Source of the DNA: Muribaculaceae bacterium
GTDB taxonomy: Bacteria; Bacteroidota; Bacteroidia; Bacteroidales; Muribaculaceae
NCBI GenBank assembly: GCA_017621845.1
Contig: JAGASI010000023.1
Span: forward strand, 62,001-126,000
DNA: 64,000 nucleotides
Reading direction: 5' to 3'
Shown: positions 1,729 through 25,923 of the stretch, in pieces
Numbering within the stretch: the stretch's first letter is position 1
Layout: every line of letters starts with the position of its first letter
The notes under the pieces: generated by a model
What the model saw: the letters and a program-made list of their open reading frames with translations, nothing else
Databases searched by the model: none
Told to the model about the DNA's origin: nothing
Position numbers and translations under genes: made by a program

Positions 1729-4146
1729 TTAATGCTGGTGTTTGCGACGTTTGAAGATGTCTGATAATCTGCGTTTATGGGGAGTTTTGCCGTAACCATA
1801 GCCATATCCGTAGGTATGCTTGGCATTATAAGCGTAGTGTCCGTAGCGGCGGTAAATGTATGTATTGGAGTTCATGTTGACGCCGTTGAGGATGATGTAT
1901 GCCTTGGGAAGACGATTTTGGCTAATGGCTTGATGGAGCACTTTGAGACTCTTGCGTGTGGTGTAGCCGGCACGTGCAACATAAATTTGGATATCGGTGT
2001 GTGGAGTGACCAGATGTGTGTCTGAAATCATGCCTATAGGCGATGTGTCCACGATGATATAATCAAATTGTTCGCGTAGTTGTTTGAACATCTCTTTCAT
2101 GTTGTCTGACATAAGCAGCTCGTTGGGATTGGGCGGAATTGGACCTGCGGGCAGGACATAGAGGTTGTCGTCAAACGATGATTGATGTATGAGCGAGTTG
2201 AGGTCTTTTTCTTGGCCTGATAGGAATGTGGTGACTCCACGTTGGTTGGTGAGGCCACATGTGTGGGCGAGTACCGGACGGCGTATGTCGAGACCGACGA
2301 CACATACTTTCTTGTTGGTTAAGGCGTATGTCATGGCAAGGTTGAGGGCGATGAAAGTCTTGCCTTCTCCCGAGATGGTGGATGTGAGCATGATAACCAT
2401 GCGGTTGCGTCCTTGAGAGGTGAAGTTGATATTATTGCGCATCAAGCGGAATAGCTCGGCAATGGGTGTGGCTACTTTATCGCCGACGACAATGGGGTCT
2501 TCGCTCTTATCCAGGCATATCTCGCCTAATATGGGTACAGAAGTCACTCTCTCGAGTTCTTCTTGGTCATTGAACTTGGGCGATAGACAACGTTTTATCA
2601 GCAGAAGGAGCCCTGGGATAAGTAGGCCGATAAGGACTCCGATAGCTAAAATCAGGTATCGTTTGGGTGAAACCGGACCTGAGCCCATGGGGTTGTCGAT
2701 AAGTTGGGCCGTTGGTGTGGCGAGTGTTTTCTGTATGGCAATCTCCTCACGCTTCTCCAATAGGAAGGTATAGATGTCGTTTTTGACCGATTGCTCGCGG
2801 AAAATGTCTTGGAGTCCCTTGTCAATCTTAGGCTGGGCTGAGAGTTGGCTTGCTGAGCGACCGCCTACCGAAGCCACGCTTGAGCGATGTTGTCTGAGGC
2901 TGTTCTTGGCCGAGCGTATGTTGCTTAACACGAGGTTGCGTTGTTCGTTAAGACGCTGTTTGCTTTCCTTGACGATATCGGTTTCTTCAGTCTGTACTTC
3001 AGATAAGGCATTGTATCTGTTTACCAGAGTGTTATATGCCTCAATCTCGGCCTTGACCCCGGGGTCATCGACTACATTGGGAAGGGTTGAGAATTTGTCT
3101 TGGCTTTTGACCTGTGTCTCGACATCGCTTAAGATGTCAATCTGGGCATCGAGTTGGCTGGTCTGAATTTCAGCCTGACTCTGTTGACTGAGGTTGGTGG
3201 CTATTTGGGCGTCTTTGTCTGATATGTTATGTTGCTCTCGGTAGGTTTTTAGTTTTTCTTCTACGTCACCAAGTTCGCCTTGAATCATTCTGAGACGGTC
3301 GATGATGAATGCTTCGGTCTGGATTGCCGATCGATTTTTGTCCTCAATGATTTTACGGTTATAGAATGTGATGAGGGTATTGATTACGTCACGGCCTTGT
3401 TCAATGATGGGGGTGTTAAGGTTGATACGTAGGATGCTGTTGGAGTTTTTGGGGAATTCAATCGAGAGGTTGGCTGAGAGATTTGCAGCTACGGTGCGTG
3501 GATTGGAGATGACAATTTTTTCAGCTTGGGTCATCTGAGAAGTCTTCCCTGCTTGAGATAGGGTAACAACCCCCGATGGGAGCTTAATTTGGGCCGGAAG
3601 ACGGTCAAAGGTGCTTTCTTGTACGATTTCCTCACCATCTGTCCGGGTCTCGGCTTTGACGTTAAACTTGTTGTCTTCTTGAGAAATTGTAAGCGTTATA
3701 GGGTTGTCAAGGTCATTGAGTGATGTCGAGTCCATTGATGCCTCGAGCACCGAGCTGCGGTAGGTGGGGATGTCGCGTAATTTGCCTACATAATAGTAGG
3801 AGTAGGACATCTTCAGTGAGTCAACGATTTTAATCAGATTGTTGCGTGACTTGAGGATTTCTATCTCAGTCTCGTCAATAAATGTCTTTAGGTTGACCAT
3901 CGGGTCGGTGGACGAGAAGTTGACAGCCTTGCCGTTGGCTGCTGACTCATCGTTGAGGTATACCGATGCCGATACTTGATAGGTGGGGATTATTGTCGAG
4001 GAATAGTAGTAGGCGAGACCGGTTGTGATAATCACGCATATAAGGAACCAGTACCAGTGTTTAAGGTAGTCGAGTAACAGGCCGGTGATGTCAAAAGACT
4101 CGTCTTTGGTCTTAATGTCGTTTTTCTGTAGAGTGTCGGTGGACAT
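1729..4146 (-). CDS. Polysaccharide co-polymerase/tyrosine autokinase (Wzc-like), orphan copy
   Basis: This inner-membrane protein controls chain length and export of a surface polysaccharide through cycles of tyrosine autophosphorylation. The 805 residues contain a Wzz domain with a first membrane helix near 31-48 and a second near 497-519. A long coiled-coil periplasmic part lies between them. The C-terminal BY-kinase has Walker A (STISGEGKT, about 585-595), Walker A' (VVGLDIRRP, about 618) and Walker B (YIIVDTSPIG, about 695). The tail is unusually tyrosine-rich, with about nine Tyr between residues 770 and 795. The gene lies 48 bases downstream of a Wza-like gene in the same transcript. 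No glycosyltransferase adjoins the pair, so its polysaccharide must be encoded elsewhere. A second, different Wzc lies at 43636. Confidence 0.93.
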   Translation of the reverse strand: MSTDTLQKNDIKTKDESFDITGLLLDYLKHWYWFLICVIITTGLAYYYSSTIIPTYQVSASVYLNDESAANGKAVNFSSTDPMVNLKTFIDETEIEILKSRNNLIKIVDSLKMSYSYYYVGKLRDIPTYRSSVLEASMDSTSLNDLDNPITLTISQEDNKFNVKAETRTDGEEIVQESTFDRLPAQIKLPSGVVTLSQAGKTSQMTQAEKIVISNPRTVAANLSANLSIEFPKNSNSILRINLNTPIIEQGRDVINTLITFYNRKIIEDKNRSAIQTEAFIIDRLRMIQGELGDVEEKLKTYREQHNISDKDAQIATNLSQQSQAEIQTSQLDAQIDILSDVETQVKSQDKFSTLPNVVDDPGVKAEIEAYNTLVNRYNALSEVQTEETDIVKESKQRLNEQRNLVLSNIRSAKNSLRQHRSSVASVGGRSASQLSAQPKIDKGLQDIFREQSVKNDIYTFLLEKREEIAIQKTLATPTAQLIDNPMGSGPVSPKRYLILAIGVLIGLLIPGLLLLIKRCLSPKFNDQEELERVTSVPILGEICLDKSEDPIVVGDKVATPIAELFRLMRNNINFTSQGRNRMVIMLTSTISGEGKTFIALNLAMTYALTNKKVCVVGLDIRRPVLAHTCGLTNQRGVTTFLSGQEKDLNSLIHQSSFDDNLYVLPAGPIPPNPNELLMSDNMKEMFKQLREQFDYIIVDTSPIGMISDTHLVTPHTDIQIYVARAGYTTRKSLKVLHQAISQNRLPKAYIILNGVNMNSNTYIYRRYGHYAYNAKHTYGYGYGYGKTPHKRRLSDIFKRRKHQH

Positions 4147-18783: not shown

Positions 18784-19080
18784 AAATAATGTTAAAGTTT
18801 ATCAGGTTGGCTACGTTATTAATACCTCTTTATCAGATTAAATGTCCGATTTTACTCTATGTCTTATTGGTATACGCACTCATAGGCTGAAGAATGGGTA
18901 TCATTGATGTACTAATTGAGATTCCAATATCCTCATAGGCGCGTAGCGCCGGACCGGTGCAGTGCTGGAGTCCTGAGTTGCCACACACCTTGTATAACGT
19001 TGACTATAAGGGGTTAGCTGACAGCCACCCCTGTCCGCTGCTCCCCCCCCATTTAATCGCCCTTTACTTAAGATGAAAAA
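18784..19080. other. Non-coding gap upstream of korAB, no feature recognised
   Basis: About 300 bases with no credible ORF. It contains a small GGCGC/GCGCC hairpin near 18939-18952 and a run of eight or more C near 19043-19050. I see no RNA family that I can name. Confidence 0.4.
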
Positions 19081-19114
19081 AAGAAAGCAGCAACTTACAA
19101 GTTACTGCTTTCTT
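19081..19114 (-). terminator. Terminator of the tRNA-Pro gene
   Basis: A stem AAGAAAGCAG with CTGCTTTCTT plus inner pairing (19081-19114) is followed on the minus strand by a run of T. It starts 13 bases after the tRNA 3' end. Confidence 0.75.
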
Positions 19115-19126
19115 GCTTTTGCTTTG

Positions 19127-19200
19127 TCGGGGTGACTAGACTCGAACTAGCGACCTCACGCCCCCCAGACGCGTACTCTAACCAACTGAGCTACACCCCG
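19127..19200 (-). tRNA. tRNA-Pro (anticodon GGG)
   Basis: On the minus strand the 74 bases fold as a cloverleaf: acceptor CGGGGTG/CACCCCG, D arm with AGTTGGTTA, anticodon stem CGCGT/GCGTG with loop CTGGGGG (anticodon GGG, reads CCC/CCU), and T loop TTCGAGT. The 3' CCA is not encoded (ACAA follows). Confidence 0.95.
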
Positions 19201-19220
19201 ATTTCTTTTCAAAAGCGATG

Positions 19221-19252
19221 CAAAGTTAAACACTTATTTTGAACTGGCCAAA
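19221..19252 (-). promoter_or_regulatory. Promoter of tRNA-Pro
   Basis: TTTG (19249-19252), a 20-base spacer and TAACTTTG (19221-19228): exact consensus, with the start predicted about 14 bases before the mature tRNA. Confidence 0.78.
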
Positions 19253-19429
19253 CTTTTTGTGCATTATTTTTTTTATATAAAAATATTTTCTCGGCTATTG
19301 TTCTTATTATCAGCGTGTAATGTCGGATGATTTTTTTTTAAAAAAATGTGTTAAAATTTTGTGGGTCATTATGCTGGCTTTTTTAGAGAATTTTAGCATT
19401 TTGGTGGCTGATTATTTTTAGTCTTGGTG

Positions 19430-19461
19430 GTTGCATTATTACAAATAAATACCTATTTTTG
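19430..19461 (+). promoter_or_regulatory. Probable promoter of ilvE and the HD gene
   Basis: GTTG (19430-19433), a 20-base spacer and TATTTTTG (19454-19461). The predicted leader of about 198 bases to the ilvE ATG is long. I found no clear leader peptide or terminator in it. The rest of 19253-19664 is very AT-rich and otherwise empty. Confidence 0.5.
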
Positions 19462-19664
19462 CATCGAAAGTCACGTTTTTTTGAACCGTTTTTCGGGATG
19501 AACTCCCTGGCATAACTAACATTTTGCTTTGGTGTGCGTTAATAATATGACTCGTTGTCATTATATGTTGCGGCGGCTTAAGATAACGTGGTTTGGATTA
19601 AACTAACACTTGGCAGGTTGCTATAATATTATTGAGGTGCCTGCTGAAATTATTTATTAATAAT

Positions 19665-20690
19665 ATGGAAACAAATCTTGATTGGGCATCACTACCTTTT
19701 GGGTATGTACCTACAGATTACAATGTGCGTTGCACCTATCGCGATGGGAAATGGGGTGACATCGAAGTCTCCCAGTCTGAGACAATCAACATGCATATGG
19801 CAGCAACCTGTCTTCATTATGGGCAGGAAGTCTTTGAAGGACTTAAGGCCTTCAGGGGTAAAGATGGTAAAATAAGAATTTTCCGTCTCAAAGAAAATGC
19901 CAAACGTATCAGGTCCTCAGCTGAAGGACTTGTTATGGAGCCTATCCCCGAGGATTTATTCCTGAAGATGTGTGTGATGGCAGTGAAGCTCAATGAGCGC
20001 TTTGTGCCTCCTTATGGTTCGGGAGCATCGCTTTATCTGCGTCCTTTGGAGATTGGTATGACACCTCGTGTTGGCGTCAGCCCTGCATCGGAATATATGT
20101 TTATAATATTTGTGTCTCCTGTAGGGCCCTATTTCAAGAGCGGATTTGGTACTACCAGTATATGTATTACACGCGACTATGACCGAGTTGCTCCCAAGGG
20201 GACAGGCCGTTTCAAGACCGGTGGTAACTATGCCGCATCTCTCAAGGCTGGTATGACTGCCAAGGATAAAGGTTATTCGGCCGTACTATTCCTTGACCCC
20301 CGAGAGAAGAAGTATCTTGATGAGTGTGGTCCCGCCAATTTCTTTGCAATAAAGAATGGTGTATATATTACTCCTGCGTCTGACTCTATATTACCATCAA
20401 TCACCAATATGTCTCTGCAACAATTGGCCAAAGACATGGGCATACCCGTCGAGGCCCGTCATATCCCTGTTGAGGAACTGGCTGAGGTAGACGAGGCGGC
20501 TGCATGTGGTACAGCTGCGGTGGCATCTCCCATTGGGTATATAGATGATCTGGACAAGAACGTGCGTTATGTCATAGCCAAGGATGGTAAACCCGGTCCT
20601 ATCACAACCAAGCTATATAATGCCTTGCGTGCCATTCAGCTTGGCGAGGTTGAAGATATCCATGGCTGGAACCATGTCATGGGTATATAA
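19665..20690 (+). CDS. ilvE: Branched-chain amino acid aminotransferase
   Basis: This PLP enzyme of fold type IV does the last step of Leu, Ile and Val synthesis, using glutamate as amino donor. It has 341 residues from ATG 19665 (METNLDWASLPFGY); the frame extends to 19632 but the extra 11 residues are not family-like. Visible: HYGQEVFEGLKAFRG (about 47-61), RLKENAKRI, the substrate-binding YLRPLEIG, the PLP lysine in NYAASLKAG (about 198) and the later ECGPANFFAI and CGTAAVASPIG loops. The length fits the large (eukaryote-like) BCAT subgroup, common in Bacteroidetes. The HD-hydrolase gene follows after two bases, so the two are co-transcribed. Confidence 0.94.
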   Translation: METNLDWASLPFGYVPTDYNVRCTYRDGKWGDIEVSQSETINMHMAATCLHYGQEVFEGLKAFRGKDGKIRIFRLKENAKRIRSSAEGLVMEPIPEDLFLKMCVMAVKLNERFVPPYGSGASLYLRPLEIGMTPRVGVSPASEYMFIIFVSPVGPYFKSGFGTTSICITRDYDRVAPKGTGRFKTGGNYAASLKAGMTAKDKGYSAVLFLDPREKKYLDECGPANFFAIKNGVYITPASDSILPSITNMSLQQLAKDMGIPVEARHIPVEELAEVDEAAACGTAAVASPIGYIDDLDKNVRYVIAKDGKPGPITTKLYNALRAIQLGEVEDIHGWNHVMGI

Positions 20691-20692
20691 TC

Positions 20693-21319
20693 ATGGGCTG
20701 GTCTCCATTTGATGAAGAGTTGCTGAGGATAATTACAGATGATGCAATAGATATTGCATATCTGTCGGTTGACTATCAGACTATTATAGACAAGTATTAT
20801 AGGCCCGGGACAAAAGTCAGGGATATAATATTGAGCCACTCGTCATCGGTGGGAGAATTTGCCTTGGAGATATCACATAGTAATAGCCTCGGTCTTGACG
20901 ACGACATCGTCAAGACCGGGGCTATGTTGCATGATATAGGTATTATTCTTACCGATGCGCCCGGTATCGACTGTCGCGGATCGGCTCCATATCTGTGTCA
21001 TGGACTGTTGGGGGCGCGGTTGTTGTTGGATGAAGGTGCGCCACTGTGGGTGGCGCGTATAGCGGCGCGTCACACCGGCGCCGGGCTTACCGCACGCGAG
21101 ATTAAGGCTGAAGGCCTTCCGTTGCCATGTATTGATCTATTGCCTGAAACATTGCTTGAAAAACTCATATGCTATGCTGATAAATTTTATTCCAAGAGTG
21201 GTAATATGCAACGCAAGTCTATTGAGAGAGTGCGGGCTTCGATGGAGCGGTATGGTAGTGAGTCTTTGGCTCGGTTTAATCATCTCGATCGCATATTTAG
21301 AAATTGCCCCGCGCAGTAA
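20693..21319 (+). CDS. HD-domain phosphohydrolase, YqeK/uncharacterised type
   Basis: This is a 208-residue metal-dependent hydrolase of the HD superfamily. The metal motif is HSSSVG (about 50), LHDIGII (HD at about 84-85), the later LCHGLLGARLLL and ARHTGAGL, and a final DLLPETLLEKLICYADKFYS segment (Asp at about 168), which together give the H...HD...H...H...D pattern. The short single-domain form resembles TIGR00295-like proteins acting on small phosphorylated molecules, but the substrate is unknown. ATG 20693 lies two bases after the ilvE stop, suggesting translational coupling, although no biochemical link to branched-chain amino acids is obvious. Confidence 0.82.
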   Translation: MGWSPFDEELLRIITDDAIDIAYLSVDYQTIIDKYYRPGTKVRDIILSHSSSVGEFALEISHSNSLGLDDDIVKTGAMLHDIGIILTDAPGIDCRGSAPYLCHGLLGARLLLDEGAPLWVARIAARHTGAGLTAREIKAEGLPLPCIDLLPETLLEKLICYADKFYSKSGNMQRKSIERVRASMERYGSESLARFNHLDRIFRNCPAQ

Positions 21320-21384
21320 ATACTTAGAGTTTGCCCCGCGATAATACTGTGGTGTTATTGGGCTGTGTGTAAAATCTATTGATA

Positions 21385-21414
21385 ACGTGTACGCGTGCGC
21401 GCGCACGCGCGTGT
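21385..21414. repeat. 30-bp alternating purine-pyrimidine tract (Z-DNA-prone) with an 18-bp perfect palindrome
   Basis: Every base from 21385 to 21414 alternates purine and pyrimidine, mostly CG and CA/TG steps. Positions 21392-21409 (CGCGTGCGCGCGCACGCG) are exactly self-complementary. A short T run follows, so the palindrome could also act as the terminator of the ilvE-HD transcript. It ends about 18 bases before the gyrB -33 element. Confidence 0.9.
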
Positions 21415-21431
21415 TTTTATTATGTGTTTTT

Positions 21432-21462
21432 TTTGTCGTGTAACCAAAATTGAGTAACTTTG
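21432..21462 (+). promoter_or_regulatory. Promoter of gyrB
   Basis: TTTG (21432-21435), a 19-base spacer and TAACTTTG (21455-21462): exact consensus. The start is predicted near 21469, about 70 bases before the ATG. The Z-prone tract sits just upstream. Confidence 0.75.
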
Positions 21463-21539
21463 TGTCGCTAAATGGCTATTCACATGATTAATCACAAGGA
21501 GTAAATCTCCCCTAAATAAGACAATTCCATATTATAGTT

Positions 21540-23471
21540 ATGTCACAAGATCCAGAAGAATATAGCGCCAGTAATATTCAAGTGCTTGAAGGCCTTGAAG
21601 CTGTGCGCAAGCGTCCCGCGATGTATATTGGTGATATTTCAGCCAAGGGCCTCCATCACCTCGTCTATGAGGTAGTAGATAACTCCATAGACGAGGCATT
21701 GGCCGGATTTGCATCACATATCGAAGTCACTATCAATACCGACAACTCCATAACTGTCGTGGATAACGGTCGTGGTATTCCGGTGGATATGCATGAAAAA
21801 GAACACAAGAGCGCTCTTGAAGTGGTGCTCACCGTGTTACACGCCGGTGGTAAGTTTGACAAGGGTACATATAAAGTCTCAGGCGGTCTTCACGGCGTCG
21901 GAGTCTCCTGTGTCAACGCGCTGTCTGTATATCTCCGCGCCGAAGTCAGACGCGGTGGTAAAATATATATGCAGGAATACTCGTGTGGTAAGCCCACCGG
22001 TGACCTTCAAGTTATTGGTGAAGCCGAGACTACCGGCACGACCATTACTTTTAAGCCTGATGACACGATATTTACAGTCACCGAGTATGATTACAGTACT
22101 CTTGCCAATCGTCTGCGCGATCTCGCCTTCCTGAATGCCGGCATTTCGCTGAAACTAACCGATATGCGCTCATTGGATAAGGACGGCAATCCCCATAGCG
22201 AGACATTCTTCTCGGCCAAGGGATTGAGTGAATTTGTACAATATATTGACTCGAGCAAAGAATCTCTGATAGGCGATGTCATAGACCTCAATACCGAGCG
22301 AGCCGGTGTCCCTATTGAGGTGGCACTCACTTATAACAACTCTTACAATGAGAATATCTACTCGTTTGTCAATAACATTAATACTATTGAGGGCGGTACC
22401 CATCTTACCGGTTTCCGTCGTGGACTCACCACTACTCTCAAGAAATATGCCGAAGATAACGGGTTGTTGAAGAACGCCAAAGTCGAGATCTCGGGCGACG
22501 ACTTCCGCGAGGGTCTCACTGCTGTTATCTCGGTCAAGGTCATGGAGCCCCAGTTTGAGGGTCAGACCAAGACCAAGCTTGGTAACTCAGAGGTGTCGGG
22601 GGCAGTGCAGGCCGCTGTATCCGAGGCCCTCTCCAACTACCTTGAAGAAAATCCCCGGGAGGCCAAGATTATAGTATCCAAGGTCATCCTTGCCGCTCAG
22701 GCTCGTCAGGCTGCCTATAAAGCCCGTCAGAATGTACAGCGCAAATCGCCGCTTAGCGGTGGTGGCCTCCCCGGCAAGCTTTCAGATTGCTCATCCCGTA
22801 CAGCTGAAGATTGTGAGATATTTATCGTCGAGGGTGACTCGGCAGGTGGTACCGCGCTTGATGCCCGCGACCGTCGCTATCAAGCGATACTTCCACTTCG
22901 TGGCAAAATCCTTAATGTTGAGAAAGCCATGGAGCATAAGATATTTGACAACGAAGAAATTACCAACCTTTTCCGCGCGTTGCGTGTAACCATTGGTACC
23001 GAGGATGATCCCAAGCAAGCCAATGTCGATAAACTCGCCTATCACAAGATTATTATCATGACCGATGCCGATGTCGACGGAGCCCATATCGCCACACTGT
23101 TGATGACATTCTTCTTCCGTCGTATGCGTCCCGTTATAGAACAAGGGTATCTCTACCTCGCTACACCTCCCTTGTACAAGTGTAAGATGGGTAAGGCCGA
23201 GGAATACTGTTGGACAGACCAGCAACTCCAACGCTTTATCACCGAGCATGGCGAGCGCACAACCGTTCAACGTTATAAAGGTCTTGGCGAAATGTCGGCC
23301 AAGGAGCTGAGAGAAACGACCATGGCCCCCGGACACCGTATGCTCAAACAGGTTCACATCCAGGATGCCGCTGAGGCCGATCGTATATTCTCGATGCTTA
23401 TGGGTGAGGATGTAGGCCCACGACGCGACTTTATTGAAGAGAACGCCAACTACGCCAACATCGACGCCTGA
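21540..23471 (+). CDS. gyrB: DNA gyrase subunit B
   Basis: This is the ATPase subunit of gyrase, which with GyrA introduces negative supercoils. It has 643 residues. The GHKL ATPase has YEVVDNSIDEALAGF (about 41-55), DNGRGIPVDMHEK and the Gly-rich lid GGLHGVGVS. The transducer domain is followed by the TOPRIM domain (IFIVEGDSAGGTALDARDRR; TDADVDGAHI at about 502-511) and the GyrA-binding tail with YKGLGEMSAKEL (about 580) and MGEDVGPRRDFI. The absence of the long insertion of proteobacterial GyrB, together with QAILPLRGKILNVEKA, fits gyrase rather than ParE. The promoter is separate from the upstream genes. rnr and folB follow on the same strand, probably from another start because 148 bases separate them. 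Confidence 0.96.
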   Translation: MSQDPEEYSASNIQVLEGLEAVRKRPAMYIGDISAKGLHHLVYEVVDNSIDEALAGFASHIEVTINTDNSITVVDNGRGIPVDMHEKEHKSALEVVLTVLHAGGKFDKGTYKVSGGLHGVGVSCVNALSVYLRAEVRRGGKIYMQEYSCGKPTGDLQVIGEAETTGTTITFKPDDTIFTVTEYDYSTLANRLRDLAFLNAGISLKLTDMRSLDKDGNPHSETFFSAKGLSEFVQYIDSSKESLIGDVIDLNTERAGVPIEVALTYNNSYNENIYSFVNNINTIEGGTHLTGFRRGLTTTLKKYAEDNGLLKNAKVEISGDDFREGLTAVISVKVMEPQFEGQTKTKLGNSEVSGAVQAAVSEALSNYLEENPREAKIIVSKVILAAQARQAAYKARQNVQRKSPLSGGGLPGKLSDCSSRTAEDCEIFIVEGDSAGGTALDARDRRYQAILPLRGKILNVEKAMEHKIFDNEEITNLFRALRVTIGTEDDPKQANVDKLAYHKIIIMTDADVDGAHIATLLMTFFFRRMRPVIEQGYLYLATPPLYKCKMGKAEEYCWTDQQLQRFITEHGERTTVQRYKGLGEMSAKELRETTMAPGHRMLKQVHIQDAAEADRIFSMLMGEDVGPRRDFIEENANYANIDA

Positions 23472-23619
23472 TACAATACATACCTGCGCCCTGTCTGTGA
23501 CCTTGGTCCAGGCAGGGCGTTGTGATAAGAAATGACGAGCCGGGCATGTCCGGATATACACTATCCTAAAGATACAACCTTTTAAGCTACCAAGGTGTTA
23601 AATATAAAAATCAACTAAC

Positions 23620-25923
23620 ATGGCACGATCCAACACCAACCAGACCAAACGCCTGCGCGACGCAGTAGCCACATATATTCTTGCCCAGAAACAGGCAACC
23701 TTCAATTATAAGCAAGTTTCCCATGCGTTGGCAGTCACATCCCAAGCCCAGATGAGGACTATAGCGCTATACCTCGCTGAGCTTGCATTTGACGGAGATC
23801 TAATCGAGGTCGCCCCGGGAATTTATAAAGCCCCGACACGTTCAGTGACAGCCACAGGTACCTTTGTGAGACGTTCCAATGGCAAGAATAGTGTAGTCAC
23901 CGACCAGGACGGCGAAACAATATTTGTCGCCGAGCGCAACTCCATGCATGCCCTTAACGGTGATAGAGTTGAGGTGACTATCGCGGCACGTCGCCGTGGC
24001 GTGGAGCCTGAGGCCGAGGTGACAGCAATTCTCGACAAAAAAGAACAGACATTTATCGGAACCGTCAAGGTTGATAAACAGTATTCGTTCCTGCAGACCG
24101 ATTCCAAATTCCTCGCTACCGATATTATCATTCCCAAGAAAGGCCTGCATGGGGCCAAAAACGATGACAAAGCTATTGTGCGTATCACCGAGTGGCCTGA
24201 AGATGAAAAAAATCCGCGTGGTGAAGTAGTCGATGTCTTAGGCAAGACCGGTGAAAACAACGCTGAAATCCACGCTATACTTGCCGAATTTGGTCTTCCT
24301 TATAAGTATCCCGAGGCGGTAAACCGTGCAGCCGAAAAGATCGATGCCGGAATTACCCCCGAGGTTGTTGCCACTCGCGAGGATATGCGCGATGTTACCA
24401 CATTTACCATCGACCCCAAGGATGCCAAGGATTTTGACGACGCTCTGTCAATACGCTGTTTGCCCAACGGCAACTATGAGATTGGTGTCCATATCGCCGA
24501 TGTTACCCATTATGTTAAGCCCGATACGTTACTCGACCGCGAGGCCCGGGACCGTGCCACCTCGGTATATCTTGTCGACAGGGTCGTCCCTATGCTGCCC
24601 GAGCATCTATCCAACGGTATATGTTCGCTACGTCCCGATGAAGACAAACTTACCTTCTCGACAGTGTTTGAGATGGATACAAAAGGTAATGTGCTCAAGT
24701 CGAGAATTGTGCGCACGGTTATCCGTAGCAACCGCCGATTTACATACGAAGAAGCCCAAGAAATTATTGAGTCTGGCAAGGGTGACTATGCCGATGAGAT
24801 ACTGGCTCTTGATAAACTGGCCAAAATTCTTCGTGCCAAACGTTATGAAAACGGCTCGGTGGACTTTGACCGTATGGAAGTGAGATTTGATATAGACGAG
24901 ACCGGACATCCGGTAGGAGTGTACTTCAAGGAGTCAAAGGACGCCAACAAGCTTATCGAAGAGTTTATGTTGTTGGCCAACAGGACAGTTGCTACAACCA
25001 TAGGTATGTCTCAAGGAAAGAAAAAGCCCAAGGCATTTGTATATCGAGTCCACGATCAGCCTGATCCCGGCAAACTGACAGATCTTGCCTCCCTCTCACG
25101 CACCTTTGGTTATAAGCTTAAGACCAGCGGTTCTTCTCGGGATGTTAACCGCTCTATCAACCGTATGCTTGCCGATGTCAAAGGCAAGGGTGAAGAAAAC
25201 TTCCTCTCGACGCTTGCCATCCGTTCAATGGCCAAGGCCATATATACGACCACCAATATCGGTCACTATGGTCTGGGATTTGATTACTACACCCATTTCA
25301 CCTCGCCTATACGACGTTATCCCGACATGATGGTGCATCGTCTGCTGGAACGTTATCTCGCCGGCGGCCGGTCGGTAAACATTGAGAAACTTGAAGACCA
25401 GTGCAAACATTCGTCAGAACGTGAGCAACTTGCCGCTAATGCCGAGCGCGCTTCGATTAAGTACAAGCAGGTAGAATATATGAATGATCATCTCGGTGAA
25501 ATATATTCAGGAATGATATCCGGAGTCACCGAGTGGGGCCTGTATGTCGAGCTGGATGACAATAAGTGTGAGGGACTTGTGCCTGTGAGAGATCTCGCTG
25601 ATGACTATTATGACTTTGATGAGAAAAATTATTGTCTGGTTGGTCGTCGCCACAACAACCGTTATCGTCTTGGAGACCAAGTCAAGGTGCAGGTGGCACG
25701 TGCCAATCTTGACAAGAAACAACTGGACTTTGTAATTGTCGATGAGAAAAATCCGCCTCGAGATATGGACTCCTTGGGACATAATGTATCTGTTGCCAAA
25801 GCCTTGAGCGGACATGCTTCTAAAAAATCGACCGGAGGCACCAAAAACCGATCATCCAAGAAGACCAAGATGTCGTCTAAAGCGTCGGGCAAAGTATCCA
25901 AGAAAAGAAAAAAAGCCAAGTAA
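23620..25923 (+). CDS. rnr: Ribonuclease R
   Basis: This is a processive 3'-5' exoribonuclease that degrades structured RNA and takes part in RNA quality control. It has 767 residues. In order: an N-terminal winged-helix (about 10-75), cold-shock domains (about 75-235), the RNB catalytic domain with the four-Asp motif DPKDAKDFDDALSI (about 267-280), a region with FTSPIRRYPDMMVHRLL (about 562-578), an S1 domain (IYSGMISGVTEWGLYVELD, about 628-646) and a lysine/serine-rich basic tail (about 730-767) typical of RNase R. Everything needed for catalysis is intact. folB starts ten bases after the stop, so the pair is probably co-transcribed. Confidence 0.95.
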   Translation: MARSNTNQTKRLRDAVATYILAQKQATFNYKQVSHALAVTSQAQMRTIALYLAELAFDGDLIEVAPGIYKAPTRSVTATGTFVRRSNGKNSVVTDQDGETIFVAERNSMHALNGDRVEVTIAARRRGVEPEAEVTAILDKKEQTFIGTVKVDKQYSFLQTDSKFLATDIIIPKKGLHGAKNDDKAIVRITEWPEDEKNPRGEVVDVLGKTGENNAEIHAILAEFGLPYKYPEAVNRAAEKIDAGITPEVVATREDMRDVTTFTIDPKDAKDFDDALSIRCLPNGNYEIGVHIADVTHYVKPDTLLDREARDRATSVYLVDRVVPMLPEHLSNGICSLRPDEDKLTFSTVFEMDTKGNVLKSRIVRTVIRSNRRFTYEEAQEIIESGKGDYADEILALDKLAKILRAKRYENGSVDFDRMEVRFDIDETGHPVGVYFKESKDANKLIEEFMLLANRTVATTIGMSQGKKKPKAFVYRVHDQPDPGKLTDLASLSRTFGYKLKTSGSSRDVNRSINRMLADVKGKGEENFLSTLAIRSMAKAIYTTTNIGHYGLGFDYYTHFTSPIRRYPDMMVHRLLERYLAGGRSVNIEKLEDQCKHSSEREQLAANAERASIKYKQVEYMNDHLGEIYSGMISGVTEWGLYVELDDNKCEGLVPVRDLADDYYDFDEKNYCLVGRRHNNRYRLGDQVKVQVARANLDKKQLDFVIVDEKNPPRDMDSLGHNVSVAKALSGHASKKSTGGTKNRSSKKTKMSSKASGKVSKKRKKAK

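Follow-up and report, generated by a model that had tools for sequence, protein, structure and literature searches.

The question raised by this locus was whether a run of alternating, CG-rich DNA next to the promoter of a gyrase gene may help the cell to sense the winding of its DNA, given that some relatives have comparable runs at this position. The locus was analysed within a 64,000-nucleotide stretch of DNA (the window) from a gut bacterium of the Muribaculaceae with a genome assembly of 2.61 Mb in 66 contigs, and the features considered were as listed here.

20693–21319, + strand: HD/HDIG-domain protein of 208 aa (domain matches), the co-directional upstream neighbour, ending 65 bp before the tract.
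21385–21414, no strand assigned: predicted B–Z transition element, a 30-bp alternating purine–pyrimidine, CG-rich tract (sequence and model).
21389–21424, + strand: candidate intrinsic terminator for the HD gene, a stem at 21389–21414 followed by TTTTTATTATG; this reading does not exclude the others.
21392–21409, no strand assigned: perfect 18-bp palindrome CGCGTGCGCGCGCACGCG within the tract (script).
21432–21435, + strand: −33 element TTTG of the gyrB promoter (sequence; consensus in the consulted part of PMC7366714).
21455–21462, + strand: −7 element TAACTTTG (TAnnTTTG) of the gyrB promoter, also present upstream of gyrB across the genus set (sequence; same consensus).
21540–23471, + strand: gyrB, DNA gyrase subunit B, 643 aa (TIGR01059, Pfam).

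The tract (ACGTGTACGCGTGCGCGCGCACGCGCGTGT) was found by direct reading and by script in the AT-rich spacer between the stop codon of the HD-domain gene and gyrB. The palindrome lies at its centre and is the longest perfect one in the window, where the runner-up alternating run has 18 bases and is AT-rich. A sequence-only reading of the same DNA had described 30 alternating bases holding a perfect 18-bp CG-rich palindrome, about 18 bases from the −33 box of a consensus gyrB promoter, and this description was borne out: 17 bases were counted between the tract and the −33 TTTG, 19 bp separate this box from the −7 element, and both boxes agree in sequence with the Bacteroidetes primary-sigma promoter as given in the excerpted text of PMC7366714 (TTTG near −33 and TAnnTTTG near −7). 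The downstream gene scored 919.6 bits against TIGR01059 (cut-off 882.4) and contains the Pfam gyrase B domains; its closest relatives belong mostly to Muribaculaceae-type metagenome genomes. With the offset that we take to hold between the −7 box and the start site, transcription would begin near 21467 and the leader to the ATG would measure about 70 nt.

The tract is the longest alternating run in the whole assembly, in which runs of at least 22 bases occur at two places only (the gyrB tract and one AT-rich 22-mer). In 200 random sequences of 2.61 Mb, built with the alternation rate of the window, the longest run averaged 22.4 bases and reached 30 in two. Runs of at least 26 bases were located at eight places in 49 same-genus genomes, two of them directly upstream of gyrB (the window's genome and G001). 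The remaining six were in G007, G020, G008, G039, G041 (adjoining an integrase-like ORF) and G045 (within an ORF), with gene names read from the ORFs. In G007 (L082) and G020 (L084), long CG/TA alternating tracts occupy the apparent acpP–fabF spacer (3501–3528), and in G008 and G039 the run falls in the 5' leader of an ORF resembling a membrane protein.

Alternating segments were scored by their steps (CG or GC, +2; CA, TG, AC or GT, +1; TA or AT, −1), and a strong tract was defined as one scoring at least 16 and located 110 to 15 bp before the −7 box. All tests reported here are post hoc, because the score and the threshold, like the comparisons, were chosen after the tract had been seen, and the related genomes are non-independent. 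The gyrB upstream DNA was usable in 44 of the 49 genomes (G021, G029, G035, G038 and G041 were left out; the regions of G048 and G018 were taken from partial gyrB matches). Both promoter boxes were present in 41 of these 44 regions by a script with a looser −33 test, the −33 match being absent in L006, L034 and L040.

Strong tracts were found at eight of the 44 gyrB promoters, and their ends lie 39–50 bp before the −7 box (window's genome, 40 bp; G023, 45; G008, 40; G039, 40; G032, 39; G040, 39; G001, 50; G036, 40). The other 36 regions contain no segment of this score in the defined interval, and a strong tract is therefore not needed for gyrB control. The sequence-only reading had staked its proposal on conservation in near relatives, which was not found for the exact tract; the property of being Z-prone, as judged from base sequence, is nevertheless recurrent upstream of gyrB. 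On a tree of the gyrB protein (43 of the 44 genus rows, G048 being left out, and three outgroup rows) no fewer than four changes of state are required to account for the eight carriers, so gain or loss of the tract has happened repeatedly. In the clade formed by G008, G039, G032 and G040 the tract sequence has changed and the alternation has been kept, and among lineages the sequences diverge strongly (ACGCGTGCGCGCGCACGCGCGTGT, ACATACGCACGCGTGTGCGT, CACGCACGCGCG). In a wider set of 61 further gyrB promoters, two had a strong tract in the examined interval, with gaps of 26 and 25 bp, and one more gyrB tract was sited in the 5' UTR or leader. Two sister genomes, G004 and G014 (L015 and L016), carry an unlike perfect 18-bp palindrome, TGTAACAGCGCTGTTACA, immediately before the gyrB −33 box. 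The gyrB of G012 (L011) has one in-frame TAG in the assembly, either an assembly error or real.

The background comprised the window and 40 stretches from the window's genome and eight relatives (854 kb, with 102.6 kb left as intergenic after ORF calling). In these 102.6 kb, five segments scored at least 16, the window tract included. A nearby strong tract was found at none of the 119 other promoter-like intergenic sites, that of gyrB being alone among 120, which rules out a general promoter feature. Upstream of gyrA, strong tracts were absent from all 44 genomes in which this gene was covered (44 of 49, two with less than 300 bp of upstream DNA), and for parE from all ten regions, a sample of ten only. 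The topA set gave two tracts in 44, CGCGCATACGCGTGCGCGTG in G023 (L299) and CGTGCGCGCACA in G033 (L287), with gaps of 47 and 44 bp to the −7 box, a spacing like that at gyrB; G020, G021, G024 and G030 were not covered, one locus of 30 came without upstream DNA, and one further topA tract, scoring 16, was left uncounted at 267 bp from the box. Compared with 0 of 119 other promoters, the topA count gave a p value of 0.07. G023 has a CG-alternating tract at both gyrB and topA.

By Fisher's test, 8 of 44 at gyrB against 0 of 119 in the background gave p values of 1.7e-5 for all genomes and 6e-5 without the window's genome; counted by lineage (four), the values were 0.004 and, without the lineage of the window's genome, 0.014. 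The six lineages with tracts (four for gyrB, two for topA) place them within 11 bp of one another, for which simulation with uniform placement gave p values of 0.0003–0.0006 (0.015 for the gyrB lineages alone). The comparison of gyrB upstream regions proposed in the earlier reading was thus divided in its outcome: Z-prone tracts recur at a near-fixed spot, and not at gyrA or the sampled promoters, whereas the tract itself is unconserved. A 17-mer, ACACATTATTWWWTATA, was about sevenfold commoner (with up to one mismatch) than its reversed control in the 49 genomes (e.g., L323, L331 and L330); its contexts varied, and among them were the upstream regions of gyrB (some relatives), topA and parE (a few relatives each). 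A dispersed element was rejected, the composite AT + CGCG motif being no more frequent in the 49 genomes than its reversed control, and so was an RNA element, the Rfam match within 19000–24000 being limited to one tRNA (19127–19200).

B–Z equilibria were calculated with a statistical-mechanical, single-run treatment of a 5-kb domain around the tract, using energies from Table 1 of PMC3024258, the part of that paper drawn on. The model predicted a peak Z probability at the tract of 0.001 at σ −0.025, about 0.035 at −0.03, 0.69 at −0.035 and 0.99 at −0.04. No competitor was predicted in the rest of the domain, where the probability stayed below 0.001. The twist at the junctions was 0.4 turn, and setting it to zero moved the predicted switch to σ −0.04/−0.045. 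The tract is accordingly a 30-bp alternating run rich in CG/CA steps with a modelled half-transition at attainable negative superhelicity, σ −0.03 to −0.045, in a model that ignores strand separation as a competitor as well as constrained supercoils. The earlier claim that the tract flips to Z-form under negative supercoiling is in line with these predictions, for which σ of about −0.03 to −0.04 is a plausible range. A simpler threshold estimate placed the eight gyrB tracts at 0.032–0.041 and the best of the 119 other promoters at 0.045. A rank test of the predicted thresholds at gyrB (own genome omitted) against the background gave a p value of just 0.024, because most gyrB regions have no tract.

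Extrusion of a cruciform, the other transition that had been proposed, is unlikely. With an assumed cost of 18 kcal/mol, the 18-bp palindrome would, by rough estimate, be too short to extrude before about σ −0.08. The longest palindromes at gyrB were no different from those at the 119 other promoters, apart from three 18-mers, and a cruciform or operator palindrome was rejected on both grounds.

We tentatively prefer the reading that the tract is an optional B–Z element, evolved recurrently upstream of gyrB, by which the promoter is tuned to supercoiling. Given the sequence, uniqueness, recurrence and spacing described above, and the energetics predicted, we infer Z-form DNA in vivo, an effect on transcription, a direction for this effect and a role in homeostasis, as follows. 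The element would lie immediately upstream of the RNA-polymerase footprint at the gyrB promoter. Under strong negative supercoiling, with a putative threshold of about σ −0.03 to −0.04, it would flip to Z-form, absorb about six superhelical turns and place a B–Z junction at about −51, in the upstream DNA where RNA polymerase, with its alpha C-terminal domains, usually makes contact. The B-form upstream contacts of the polymerase would then be lost and initiation at gyrB would fall; upon relaxation the tract would return to B-form and gyrB would rise. The direction of the response depends on this contact-blocking step, because a buffer alone would clamp supercoiling and would not reverse the response. 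The element would be optional: CG-alternating tracts of unlike sequence lie at near-equal distance in several lineages of the genus, and most relatives have none. Against the B–Z reading stand, as its main weaknesses, the 36 of 44 same-genus gyrB regions without a strong tract and the counts at gyrA and topA, and also the wider set: gyrA, expected to be co-regulated, never carries the tract (0 of 44); topA, expected to be regulated in the opposite sense, has it twice at gyrB-like spacing; and gyrB promoters of the wider set rarely carry it (2 of 61), at other gaps.

Two explanations are close rivals of the B–Z element. The tract may be a B-form, sequence-specific site for a transcription factor or nucleoid protein, positioned like an activator site ahead of the −33 box, and the alternation would follow incidentally from a recognition sequence resembling CGCGCACGCG. 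The near-fixed spacing of 39–50 bp to the −7 box is what such a factor would impose, and a GCGCRYGC core is common to several gyrB regions: in a pattern scan of 397 genomes family-wide, six of the 34 genus sites combining core and promoter were gyrB, a descriptive count only, the pattern having been modelled on the gyrB tracts after inspection. The large sequence differences between lineages, the lack of a dyad symmetry common to the tracts and the absence of enrichment of the composite motif over its reversed control argue against a bound protein, which we regard as rather unlikely, if a serious competitor.

The other rival is chance combined with replication slippage: functionless short tracts of CG dinucleotides would appear and lengthen where intergenic DNA is free of constraint. 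In its favour are the 36 regions without a tract, the long tracts at unrelated sites (the acpP–fabF spacer and the 5' leader already described) and the two random genomes in which a run of 30 was reached. The rarity of high-scoring intergenic tracts, four in 102.6 kb besides that of the window, and their occurrence with a single spacing at the promoters of gyrB and topA speak against this explanation, and we consider it unlikely.

That the tract serves the HD-domain gene as an intrinsic terminator, and at the same time shields gyrB from read-through, is improbable: the + strand does have a GC-rich stem of 7–9 bp followed by TTTTTATTAT, the usual stem-plus-T-run arrangement, starting about 65–70 bp past the HD stop codon, but the fold is no more stable than those of shuffled sequences (z 0.98 and 1.08), the tracts of G032 and G040 fold to just about −3 kcal/mol, and the upstream neighbours of gyrB vary and are divergent in some relatives, such as G001 (a DEAD-box-like ORF by our own reading) and G008 (tRNA-Pro), and therefore termination does not explain the recurrence. 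The terminator suggested earlier is thus possible in the window's genome, in addition to another function, and fails for relatives with a divergent upstream gene.

Returning to the B–Z element, its interest lies in how gyrase promoters respond to relaxation, a question not yet settled. The consulted passages of PMC8422995 state that the relaxation-activated gyrA–gyrB promoters cannot be accounted for by the discriminator mechanism alone, and that nearby competing transitions, Z-DNA among them, can alter the supercoiling response of a promoter. Z-DNA is depleted around prokaryotic start sites according to earlier evidence cited in the excerpt of PMC3343103, and a strong Z-former at gyrB is therefore unusual. 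Z-prone tracts and supercoiling-controlled gyrase genes are each known; their combination at gyrB at a set distance, or any Z-DNA element at a gyrase promoter, was not found among the titles and abstract openings of the open-access literature searched, a scope outside which most subscription journals fall. A gyrB promoter with a strong Z-former, together with sister species without one, offers a natural comparison for B–Z regulation of bacterial genes. The wider proposal, that a switch based on left-handed DNA arose repeatedly in some gut Bacteroidales at a set distance ahead of the gyrB promoter and occasionally that of topA, so that these topoisomerase genes would read supercoiling directly through a B–Z transition and not through the core promoter, is doubtful at present.

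Among known systems, the nearest in role are the gyrase promoters of E. coli and mycobacteria, where relaxation stimulates gyrA and gyrB transcription (PMC4770202, as excerpted); in common with them are the promoter of a gyrase gene and a homeostatic response to supercoiling, proposed to act through elements in the DNA around the promoter. Their response is described as lying mostly in the −10 region in E. coli and in distal or overlapping promoters in mycobacteria, whereas the candidate at the Muribaculaceae gyrB is a Z-prone tract. With the Z-forming sites of the SIBZ model (PMC3024258, in the part drawn on) the tract shares an alternating CG-rich run and a predicted switch at σ −0.03 to −0.04; it differs in its location at a bacterial gyrB promoter, the excerpt of PMC3343103 citing depletion of Z-DNA around prokaryotic start sites. 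The Bacteroides primary-sigma promoter, TTTG / TAnnTTTG in the excerpted text of PMC7366714, is matched in both boxes at gyrB, as in the 41 genus regions counted with the looser −33 test; to this consensus the gyrB promoter adds an upstream CG-alternating tract that is not part of it.
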